DNA of 64,000 bases. Source: Zoogloea ramigera (GTDB lineage Bacteria > Pseudomonadota > Gammaproteobacteria > Burkholderiales > Rhodocyclaceae). This document shows, one piece after another, positions 1 through 49,611 of the stretch; the stretch's first letter is position 1; every line of letters begins with the position of its first letter. The stretch covers positions 1 through 64,000 of the forward strand of contig NZ_BJNV01000020.1 in NCBI RefSeq assembly GCF_006539865.1, written 5' to 3'. Below the pieces are notes generated by a model. That model searched no databases. It saw only the letters and a list, made by a program, of their open reading frames with translations, and had not been told where the DNA came from. The position numbers and the translations under genes are program-made.

Positions 1-81
1 GCTGCTGCGCTGCTCGGCGGCTCAGAAGGGGCTTTCCGGAATCACCGAGCGTTGCAGGGCGTGCGGGTGTGATCGGCGGAA

Positions 82-123
82 AGGCGACAGGCGACAGGCG
101 ACAGGCGACAGGCGACAGGCGAA
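82..123. repeat. 7-bp tandem repeat
   Basis: Five exact copies of AGGCGAC followed by one variant copy (AGGCGAA). It sits in gene-free DNA about 30 bp before the first REP-like element. It is probably a slippage-prone microsatellite, and I see no coding context. Confidence 0.9.
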
Positions 124-150
124 GGGCGGGAGATGGGAGTTGGAAAATGG

Positions 151-182
151 GTAGGTCGGGTTAGCGCAGCGTAACCCGACAT
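151..182. repeat. REP-like inverted repeat, copy 1
   Basis: The arms GTCGGGTTA (155-163) and TAACCCGAC (172-180) form a perfect 9-bp stem around an 8-nt loop, preceded by GTAG and followed by AT. The same element recurs at 348-383 and, in the opposite orientation, at 14957-14989; a decayed copy lies at 1979-2004. It resembles the REP sequences that are moved by Y1-type (RAYT) transposases in proteobacteria. No such transposase is in this window. The DNA after this copy (183-254) aligns with the DNA after copy 2 (384-458). Confidence 0.85.
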
Positions 183-254
183 TTCTCCGTTATATCGATG
201 CGCCATCGCTCCTGGCGGTATCCGCTGCTGTCCCCTTGTGCGGGTTCGTCTCAA

Positions 255-347
255 CCCAGGTCTGAGTGAGGATGATCCAGGTTGGAGTGAGACTGGAGCA
301 GGTCGAAGCGAGGACGGCGCAGGTCTGAGCGAGGATGACCCAGCTGC
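255..347. repeat. 21-bp degenerate tandem repeat array A1
   Basis: Four full units of exactly 21 bp (255-275, 276-296, 297-317, 318-338) and a fifth that is cut off at about 348 by the second REP element. The units share a CAGGTYTGAGYGAGGATGA-like core. The period is two turns of B-DNA. In several frames on both strands the array is open and translates as a 7-residue repeat, which produces spurious ORFs. It starts about 75 bp after REP copy 1. Confidence 0.85.
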
Positions 348-383
348 GTAGGTCGGGTTAGCCTGCAGGGCGTAACCCGACAT
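348..383. repeat. REP-like inverted repeat, copy 2
   Basis: Same arms as copy 1 (GTCGGGTTA at 352-360, TAACCCGAC at 373-381) but with a 12-nt loop. It interrupts the fifth unit of array A1. Its 3' flank (384-458) resembles the flank of copy 1: both carry a YATCGRYRCGCCAT-like string and end in AACCC just before an array begins. The unit of organisation therefore looks like REP, about 75-bp leader, then 21-bp array, present twice. Confidence 0.85.
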
Positions 384-458
384 CCCCCGTGCCCTATCGG
401 CACGCCATTGTTCCGCGCGGCGGCGTCGGTTGCCCGTTGTTCTGGGGCGCCTTGAACC

Positions 459-731
459 CGAGTCAGGTTGAAGGGGGCGCGGGTCGGGTTCAAGCGAACT
501 CCGGTCGGGTTTGAGCTGACTCGGGTCAGGTTGAAGGTGGCCCGAGTCAGGTCTGACCGAACTCGGGTCTGGTTCAAGCTGACCCGGGTCGGGTCGAAGC
601 AAACTCGAGTCGGGTCTGAGCGAAGCTGAGTCAGGTTCAAGCCGACTCGGGTCAGGTCTGAGCCGACTCAGGTCGGCTTGAAGGTGACTCGGGTCGGGTT
701 GGAGTGAGGATGTGTCGGGTTGAAGCGCACC
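459..731. repeat. 21-bp degenerate tandem repeat array A2
   Basis: Thirteen consecutive units, all exactly 21 bp (13 x 21 = 273). They are built around CGGGTCGGGTTGAAG with a variable 6-nt end. No two units are identical, but GTC and the GGT block are nearly invariant. Each unit boundary carries an imperfect dyad (for example GACTCGGGTC). The array ends directly in the strong hairpin at 728-756. There is no plausible gene: the ORFs here are 7-residue repeats open in several frames. Confidence 0.9.
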
Positions 732-786
732 GGGCCGTCGCGAGGACGGCCCGGTGTTGCGGACCCCCGGGGCGCCCCCGGGGGGT
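728..786 (-). terminator. two strong hairpins after the 788-1264 gene
   Basis: CACCGGGCCGTC (728-739) pairs perfectly with GACGGCCCGGTG (745-756), a 12-bp stem with a 5-nt loop. A second hairpin pairs ACCCCCGGGG (763-772) with the C4G6T string at 776-786. Both lie just downstream of the minus-strand gene that ends at 788, so they are probably its transcript end. There is no clear U tract, so termination is an inference. Confidence 0.55.
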
Positions 787-787
787 G

Positions 788-1264
788 TCAGTTGGCGCTG
801 TCTTCGGGGGTCGGGCTGCGCTTGCCGTTGGACGCGAAGCGCTCCGAGCCATGCTCCTGCAGCGCATCGGCCACCGCGCTGCCGTCGGTGGCCTTGGCGA
901 AGCGGTAGGCTGCCAGCGCGGATTCGTAGAGGTCGTTGCCCAGGGCCCGTTCGGTGTCGTCGGCCCGGCCGGCGAGCTGGCGCAGGCGGCTGAAGATCGG
1001 CCGCAGCTGGTCGAGGGCCACCAGGTCGCGCTGCATCTCTGCGAGGTCGAAGCTGCGCGGCAGGATGTCCGGGTCCTGCTCGAGGGTGTCGAGGGTGTGC
1101 CGCACGAAAGACTCGGAGCGCGCGCCCATCCGCAGCAGCGACACCCGCTGCGCCGCCGTCAGCTCGACCATTGCCTTGAGCTTGTCCTCAAGCCCGGCCA
1201 GCATGCCGCGGATGGCGGCGAGATCGTCGTTGGAAAGGGAGATCGAAACGATGTTCTGGGACAT
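788..1264 (-). CDS. hypothetical protein, 158 aa
   Basis: I do not recognise a family. The ATG at 1264 is preferred over the one at 1270 because GGAGG ends 8 nt upstream of it and only 2 nt upstream of the other. The protein starts MSQNIVSISL, is predicted to be largely helical (segments such as LAAIRGMLAGLEDKLKAMVE), has no signal peptide or membrane segment, and ends in a polar tail. It is soluble and probably cytoplasmic. It stands alone, with strong hairpins after its stop codon. The good Shine-Dalgarno sequence and protein-like composition support a real gene; the function is unknown. Confidence 0.75.
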   Translation of the reverse strand: MSQNIVSISLSNDDLAAIRGMLAGLEDKLKAMVELTAAQRVSLLRMGARSESFVRHTLDTLEQDPDILPRSFDLAEMQRDLVALDQLRPIFSRLRQLAGRADDTERALGNDLYESALAAYRFAKATDGSAVADALQEHGSERFASNGKRSPTPEDSAN

Positions 1265-1433
1265 GGGCATAGCCTCCGGATCATTGAAACCGGGGGCTTT
1301 CGCGCGCCCCCGAATGCGCCGGGGGATTGTAGGGGTATTTGGAATGTGTATGTAAATAAATTATTAGGGCGGGCGGGGGCGGCGACTGCGGGGTGCGTGA
1401 TGGAGGCGTGCCTTGCATTAATCCGCTTCGAAC

Positions 1434-1955
1434 TCAGGAACTGGCCGGAGCGGAGTGATCCAGAAAAATGGCGCTCAGGGAGACTCTTTCGATGGCATTG
1501 CGCCGCATGTACTCCGTCGAGTCCAGCAACTCGCGGGCGGAATACTCTTCAAAGACGACCTTCAGGAACTTGCCCAGGACGAGGCGTGGGATCGAATCAC
1601 CCCGGCCTGCGCCGATAGACCACTGATATGGATCGAGGGCGCCCTTGGTCAGATTGCATGGGGCACACGCACGAACCATGTTGTCGATGTTGTCCGGGCC
1701 CCCCAGCGAAACCGGGATGATGTGCTCCCACTGCAATGAGCCGGTCGTACCGCAATAAGCGCAGACGTCGCCAAGCATGAAGAGCTGCTTGTTCTCGGTG
1801 AGGATGGCCGACGGGCTTATCTTCCCTTCAACCAGCTTGCGAAACGTGAAGTTGACGAACTTGAAGTTCAATCGGTCGCCGATCGCGCTGCCGGAAATAA
1901 TCTTGGCGTATTCCCAGTAGATGAGATTGCGGACAGTGGCGAAGCGGCGGGGCAT
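1434..1955 (-). CDS. HNH endonuclease domain protein, 173 aa
   Basis: The C-terminal half carries a zinc-finger HNH fold: CAYCG at about residue 67, EHIIPVSLGG with the catalytic His pair at about 79, then NMVRACAPCN supplying the second CxxC and the Asn. Such domains cleave DNA in homing endonucleases, McrA-type restriction enzymes and phage proteins. The N-terminal 60 residues have no motif I know. There is no obvious Shine-Dalgarno sequence before the ATG at 1955. The neighbours are an unknown protein and a PLD-like protein on the same strand, which suggests a small accessory or defence block, but a partner is not established. Confidence 0.85.
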   Translation of the reverse strand: MPRRFATVRNLIYWEYAKIISGSAIGDRLNFKFVNFTFRKLVEGKISPSAILTENKQLFMLGDVCAYCGTTGSLQWEHIIPVSLGGPDNIDNMVRACAPCNLTKGALDPYQWSIGAGRGDSIPRLVLGKFLKVVFEEYSARELLDSTEYMRRNAIERVSLSAIFLDHSAPASS

Positions 1956-1978
1956 GGTGAGGTCTGATCCTGAGTTGC

Positions 1979-2004
1979 GTCGGGTTGGTGTAGCGTAACC
2001 TGAC
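1979..2004. repeat. decayed REP-like element
   Basis: GTCGGGTT and GTAACCTGAC flank a short loop, with one mismatch relative to the intact REP arms at 151-182. It lies between the HNH gene and the PLD-like gene. It is assigned by similarity to the other copies in the window. Confidence 0.55.
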
Positions 2005-48850: not shown

Positions 48851-49321
48851 TTGGGGAGAAACAGCGGATTCATCAACAGGCTTGGCGCGTCTTGAATCGC
48901 CCCGGCTTTCATAGTCGCATCCAAGGTCCGCATTTCTCTCTTGAACGGCCGGTATCACGAAGTCCATCGGGCGTCGGCCGACGACCAGTCAGACGCCTGC
49001 GTTGTCTCCAGCACCCTCCCAGGATTGGTTTGAACCGTTCGAGTTTCACGCGCCTCCGTGCCTGACCGAGGCTGCAAGGCCCGGCGCCCGGTTTTTGCCG
49101 GGAACACCGTCAGCTACACACCCCCCCCGCCGATCCATTTCCGCGCCGAACCATCTCTGCAACGACGACGCGTTCCAGACAGCCCGAATCAAGGCTGCCG
49201 CTCCGCCCGTCGCCCTCGACAACAAGCCGCGCTGCAGGCTTGCCCCGCTGGCGACGCCTGAGACCCGGCATCGAACGCTACCCCGCGCCCCGCAGGGCGA
49301 GCCAGTGCAGCAAAAAACGCG
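48851..49321. other. gene-free stretch before array C
   Basis: This 471-bp stretch follows the GmrSD stop. It has no ORF with a ribosome site or recognisable product; the frames open here are Arg/Pro/Ser-rich and overlap one another. A small CCCGG/CCGGG hairpin with a T5 loop lies near 49087-49105. The last part (about 49230-49320) is G+C-rich and leads into array C. Confidence 0.6.
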
Positions 49322-49611
49322 CTTTCACACCAAAAAACGACGTTGCCGGGCCTTGCAACGTCGTTTTTTCATTGAACAACGTCGTTGCACGACGTAAAAC
49401 AACGATGTCGGGCCTGACAACTCAATTGTTTGACCGAACAACAACGATGTTTAGCCTGACAACGTTGTTTCACGCCGAAAAACATCAATGTTTGTGCTGA
49501 CAACGACGTTGTCGGGCCCAACAATGACGACGTCGGGGCCGACAGCTCGATTTCACGGCGAAAAACTGGCTTGTCTGGCCGAACCGCCCGGTTTGCAGGC
49601 ACTGAAGCAAG
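49322..49611. repeat. 21-bp degenerate tandem repeat array C
   Basis: About fourteen units, mostly 21 bp (18, 20 and 23 bp variants occur), starting at 49322, 49343, 49364, 49385, 49408, 49429, 49450, 49468, 49491, 49509, 49530, 49550, 49571 and 49591. Two unit types mix: one around TTGTCGGGCCTGACAACGA, the other around TTTCACGCCGAAAAAC. Perfect dyads such as ACAACGACGTTGT recur. The consensus is unlike arrays A and B, but period and degeneracy are the same. No REP element is adjacent. Reverse and forward frames give 7-residue repeats. Confidence 0.85.
49332..49369. terminator. 15-bp hairpin with A6/T6 ends inside array C
   Basis: AAAAAACGACGTTGC (49332-49346) is perfectly complementary to GCAACGTCGTTTTTT (49355-49369), with an 8-nt loop. 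This has the form of a bidirectional intrinsic terminator and is formed by the first three units of array C. Confidence 0.75.

Follow-up and report, generated by a model that had tools for sequence, protein, structure and literature searches.

The closest described systems to the arrays in this study are the intergenic minisatellites (VNTR) of bacteria and the iteron and parC-type centromere arrays, the latter two being phased repeats for an oligomerising protein. Repeats of the GTAG superfamily of REPs also form clusters, with mention of the Thauera MZ1T GTAG-1 arrays (PMC3733652). The tandem repeats of Borg elements have near perfect units, with 14–38% of intergenic unit lengths divisible by three (PMC9879509). 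A literature search lying largely outside subscription papers turned up no description of such 21-bp arrays between Zoogloea genes. Tandem repeats are usually sorted by sequence; the arrays described here have for the most part only their spacing in common and replace each other at one site.

Layout of the window locus

The stretch of DNA that was analysed, referred to as the window, comprises 64,000 nucleotides of contig C20 of genome G000 (Zoogloea ramigera; 4.6 Mb, 207 contigs). In line with the genus, a response regulator of G000 has its best named match in a Zoogloea MAG (89% identity). The relevant features of the window are as follows.

1–86: terminal part of a MITE-like element, a long dispersed inverted repeat, cut by the contig edge (window 1–190 aligned with G007:C76)
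82–122: heptamer run, AGGCGAC x 5.9
151–180, + strand: REP 1, GTAG-tagged (pattern match)
183–254, + strand: leader 1 (alignment)
255–338, + strand: array 1, class A, 4 x 21 bp, without dyad symmetry (TRF, register, shift identity)
348–381, + strand: REP 2, GTAG-tagged, with a longer loop than REP 1 (pattern match)
384–455, + strand: leader 2, alignable with the G007 leader (alignment)
462–734, + strand: array 2, class A, 13 x 21 bp, dyad-symmetric (TRF, register, BLAST)
788–1270, − strand: flanking 160-aa ORF, putatively phasin-like; its end is orthologous in G007
49320–49560, + strand: second window array, class B, ~21-bp units of other sequence, dyad-symmetric

Two REPs, two leaders and two arrays of exact 21-bp units had been described at 151–731, and this was borne out at 151–735, where the arrays are non-coding, by pattern matching, TRF and the register of the units. 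TRF reported period 21 at 254–343 (4.3 copies) and 462–700 (11.4 copies), together with rows of period 63. In register, array 1 consists of 4 full units (255–338) rather than the 4.5 counted in the preliminary description, and array 2 of 13 units (462–734), as counted there, with no unit of altered length and the array proper ending near 735. Identity at a shift of 21 was 0.70 for array 1 and 0.64 for array 2, which far exceeds the 0.22–0.33 at shifts of 20 and 22, and the period is therefore not due to chance. The 21-bp units abut, with no unique spacers between them, in agreement with the earlier view that this is not a CRISPR; minisatellites are tandem units of 10–60 bp, a range in which the window arrays fall. 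A comparison of window 1–2000 with Rfam gave three matches, all far under the gathering score. A viral, phage or plasmid origin was rejected, with no relative of one window peptide in a viral scan and no plasmid or phage match.

Both window REPs match GTAGGTCGGGTTA-N(4,14)-TAACCCGAC exactly, a pattern with 41 exact copies in G000 and none for the backward control. The sequences at 151–180 and 348–381 thus have what defines a GTAG-superfamily REP, a tag beside an inverted repeat in many dispersed copies. The RAYT transposase (PF01797) has no match in G000, and five of 14 control genomes do match; the presence of RAYT in a genome is no condition for calling a REP. The 21-bp unit consensus carries neither the GTAG tag nor the REP stem, and the units are therefore not REPs, nor are the arrays a REP/BIME mosaic.

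Arrays, REPs and leaders at other sites

An array at C4:7512–7805 is 92% identical to array 2, in a match that spans the array and ends near the array ends. Further class A arrays in G000 separate a response-regulator gene from parE on C12 and dnaE from a cupin gene on C21 (gene names from reading translations), and class A arrays are also present in two sister species, G005 and G007. At the parE site, G000 and G005 have 12 colinear units each (identity 0.88 in register, 0.61 out of register), and the G007 contig ends after eight; the array is common to all three species and the REP is in G000 only. At the orthologous dnaE–cupin site there are 14 units in G000 and 4 in G005, a difference between species, and the idea that related arrays recur elsewhere in the genome, in conserved synteny and with variable length, was supported. 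In a pattern search of 23 genomes of the genus, clustered class A matches occurred only in G000, G005 and G007; five others had one or two scattered matches at three mismatches, about equal to the backward control. A 42-bp class A model (R1) matched 11 of 296 family genomes, with many matches in G000 and single weak ones in ten others, in a match list without G005 and G007, which were perhaps not drawn into the 296-genome sample.

The window site itself has an orthologue in G007, where the upstream repeat, the heptamers, a degenerate REP, the leader and the end of the downstream gene are all present, and where the leader scores better than all 2000 shuffles against both leader 1 and leader 2. 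The array at this site is of a different class, L. Its identity is 0.47 at a shift of 21, against 0.29 and 0.35 for shifts of 20 and 22, and 0.55 at a shift of 126; aligned locally with class A, it scores under the shuffle mean. A second site where one array stands in place of another is on C4, with class A in G000 and class F in G007; in all 17 other genomes whose two flanks fall on a single contig, only 43–108 bp separate the flank matches (three of the 17 intervals were read).

The REP, leader and array had been proposed to form one element, and a composite mobile element in which the three travel jointly is now very improbable. REPs do cluster near arrays in G000 yet form no part of them. 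A REP (≤3 substitutions) lies within 150 bp of four of the 11 G000 arrays that were not found via REPs, where ~0.1 would be expected (~1% per array, given three REPs across the 94 kb of non-coding DNA sampled), and there is a REP near the one G010 array and a degenerate one near the G007 window-site array. Regions opened at REP matches held non-coding arrays of 21 or 22 bp, or multiples, in 7/20 cases in G000, and such an array in 1/20 in G003, G012 and G014 combined. Against joint travel, no REP at the same threshold was found within 150 bp of any of the 16 arrays of G003, G005, G007 and G011 in that comparison, G000 has no PF01797 match, and the C4 copy matches array 2 over the array only. 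The parE-site orthologues in G005 and G007, with the array and no REP, largely refute it, and the G007 window site retains a degenerate REP and leader beside an array of differing sequence. The composite element was rejected on these orthologues, the REP proximity counts and the G007 window site.

The leaders are related, which was the test set in the preliminary description, but they are not tied to one array. End-to-end alignment of leader 1 with leader 2 beats shuffles (p 0.0005), and their best local alignment is no better than shuffles (p 0.25), suggesting that the two are weakly related. In BLAST, the match of REP 1 extends 38 bp into leader 1 at C4:104205–104273, and slightly less at C51:15732–15788; since the nominal p of 0.04 for leader 1 against the C4:104205–104273 flank is one among 77 candidate REP flanks compared, a leader common to other loci is not established.

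The MITE-like long imperfect inverted repeat (L227:2640–3310, window 1–86) was seen by eye to adjoin arrays of different classes (G005:C201, G007:C168), and sequence like window 1–86 lies beside arrays in L044 and L227, also by eye. In G012 (L256–L266), REPs occur as close pairs in 11/11 regions, with starts 57–61 bp apart and no 21-bp arrays.

Common period, unit length and symmetry

Array classes B, C, D, F–H and J–L, mostly unrelated in sequence, have the same ~21-bp period as class A. Class B is found at window 49320–49560 and also in G000, G005 and G007, class C at C9, C14 and in G007, class D at C4:42784, C57, G005:C14 and in G010, and class F at G007:C168 and C33, with G, H, J and K as further classes. 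When profiles were compared with column permutation, 5/105 pairs reached p<0.01, including the positive control, with ~1 expected; judged by these profiles, B–H, A–G, F–J and F–G011a may be distant relatives.

A census was made of 1.7 Mb in stretches not chosen for repeats (G000 642 kb, G003 400 kb, G011 280 kb, G006 388 kb), with TRF cut-offs of score ≥50 and length ≥60 bp, and with "non-coding" decided by a codon-composition rule and not by annotation. For each of the 11 arrays called non-coding, TRF reports a row with a period of 20, 21, 42, 43 or 88 bp, a grouping of periods chosen after the data were seen. The period rows (bp) by array were:

G000: 43; 21 and 43; 21, 42 and 84; 88 and 175
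G003: 21; 21; 42; 20
G011: 21 and 42; 21 and 63
G006: 21 and 27

The array in G006 (L214) is possibly coding. A control of 80 loci of other bacteria (888 kb, TRF score 60) gave 21 rows, non-coding at L160, L165 and L179, with a 21-bp array at one locus, L179, and is too small for the period to be called special to Zoogloea. The L179 array (1–291) stands beside a 14-bp array at the end of a Geobacteraceae MAG contig. Two non-coding arrays have 43-bp units, near twice 21.5 bp (L203:3200–3516, L206:13044–13233), another has non-coding 88-bp units in 4.9 copies that are 91% alike (L089:5771–6206), and four identical 21-bp units at L288:5233–5316 form an apparently young array. Higher-order periods of 42, 63 and 84 occur within arrays.

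The preliminary description held that units never change length, which is true of the class A pairs seen here and not of all classes. Five orthologous or homologous array pairs, which share branches, contain 175 substitutions (class A: 29 in C12/G005, 23 in C12/G007, 19 at the dnaE site; class B: 62 in G007:C133/G005:C183, 42 in window/G005:C305) and two non-unit indels, and the flanks of three of these sites contain 119 substitutions and eight inner gaps, the only gaps counted, one of which spans 63 bp and contains the REP (Fisher p 0.015; 0.042 without the class B window/G005:C305 pair). The inner array gaps are of 21 bp in the window/G005:C305 pair and of 1 bp and 22 bp in G007:C133/G005:C183. 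At the dnaE site, aligning the arrays without their flanks gives a difference of 210 bp, which is ten whole units. This alignment was used; with the flanks included, two gap events totalling 170 columns fell within the array. The window/G005:C305 pair has its left flank in common and the right flank of G005:C305 resembles that of C51, making orthology uncertain, and the flanks of the window's class B array, at 49% identity with 517 substitutions and 13 indels, are not alignable and were excluded from the flank counts. A looser flank count (18 indels/128 substitutions) takes in alignment-edge breaks and poorly alignable stretches and makes the deficit look stronger.

Seven paralogous pairs add 342 substitutions and two gaps of 1 bp, an inner one in class F and another, in class C of G007, at the last column but one. 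All pairs pooled give p 0.0004, on pairs that have branches in common and are biased towards arrays alike enough to be detected. Recent homogenisation is not hiding indels, because a unit is closer to its orthologue (0.88) than to the other units (0.61). Together, the alignments modestly suggest that non-unit indels are fewer in arrays than in flanks. Columns that do not vary in one array of class A vary less in another (p 0.019 and 0.029), and in young arrays column conservation is no predictor of change (rho −0.33, p 0.14; rho −0.10, p 0.66).

Many units are dyad-symmetric. In 10 of 18 distinct arrays they are more self-complementary than column permutations at p<0.05 (Fisher 4e-13), with p 0.0005 for class L; no significant symmetry was found in the young class A arrays (C21, G005:C201, window array 1) or in other young arrays (D, F, K, G011 L316). 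Fold energy is under that of 40 column-permuted controls each (z −2.3 to −8.0) for both strands of classes A, B, C, G and H and for one strand of D, and not clearly under controls for F, G011a and the other D strand (z −1.35 to +0.9), agreeing with symmetry in 6/8 classes tested on at least one strand. The symmetry of the units is equally compatible with a dimeric protein, with hairpins and with mutation templated by hairpins.

Explanations for the two-turn spacing

The best explanation, offered tentatively, is that the arrays are helically phased intergenic DNA for a putative low-specificity binder, and neutral two-turn amplification is just as likely as a phase-reading binder. Under the former, the two-turn period of 21 bp would be retained while the unit sequence is mostly free, and a dimeric DNA-binding protein of low specificity, nucleoid-associated or insulator-like, would occupy each unit. 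All bound copies would then lie on one face of the DNA, and intergenic DNA would be wrapped or bridged. A shift of 1 bp would rotate the remaining array by ~34 degrees and be selected against, with base changes tolerated; arrays would grow by slippage in unit multiples. The REPs and the long inverted-repeat element are found at the same sites. In favour of phased binding are the common period of mostly unrelated classes, the census, the shortage of non-unit indels, the dyad symmetry, the replacement of one array by another at the window and C4 sites, and the lower variation of invariant class A columns. The earlier idea of two turns and one face agrees with the common period, though its support from indels is modest. 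Counter to selection on phase is the perfect 21-bp array of class K, which suggests that 21 bp is set at birth, and counter to strict 21-bp phasing are the arrays of 20, 22, 43 and 88 bp. The young arrays, with neither significant symmetry nor a column conservation that predicts change, also weigh against it. It is rather doubtful that the arrays form an element class of Zoogloea set by helical phase and not by sequence, in which interchangeable two-turn arrays fill intergenic slots and phase is selected for a putative low-specificity scaffold.

A functionless mutational origin, in which a replication or repair process of the genus would duplicate about two turns, often at hairpin-forming DNA, and the resulting neutral minisatellites would drift, has an equal claim to phased binding. 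It fits the perfect young array and the higher-order periods, slippage would be favoured by hairpin energy and symmetry, array divergence is at least that of non-coding flanks (identity 0.891 vs 0.839 at parE; 0.756 vs 0.891 at the G007:C133 site), and the C4 site is only 43–108 bp in the 17 other genomes; taken alone, however, it leaves the scarcity of non-unit indels and the two array types per site unexplained. That the arrays are transcribed, with palindromic units as hairpins that stabilise or end transcripts, is a good deal less likely, as the low fold energies of A, B, C, G, H and one D strand are offset by those of F, G011a and the other D strand, by the lack of an Rfam match at gathering score, and by a 21-bp spacing that hairpins do not require. 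Coding heptapeptide repeats are less credible still than the composite element, for although 21 bp is seven codons and some frames are open throughout A, C and D arrays, window class B is stopped in all six frames, substitutions by column modulo 3 are 30, 16 and 31, and the composition by codon position does not resemble coding sequence under the rule applied; coding heptads were rejected for window class B and are unlikely for class A.

Such arrays would be natural test pieces for helical phasing in the organisation of bacterial DNA or, if neutral, would indicate a mechanism by which two helical turns are duplicated. Both outcomes are testable in this culturable genus, whose group comprises sludge bacteria.

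Compared with iteron and parC-type arrays, those in this study have several sequences and are dispersed over the chromosome. They resemble bacterial minisatellites and VNTR in their head-to-tail units and in a copy number that differs between species at one site, but here many mostly unrelated units in one genus have one period. The likeness to GTAG REPs lies in intergenic position, palindromy and the GTAG-tagged REPs beside several arrays, and the difference in a 21-bp consensus without tag or stem (PMC3733652). Borg elements likewise have many independent arrays per genome, whereas here the periods cluster at 21 and old arrays are degenerate (PMC9879509).
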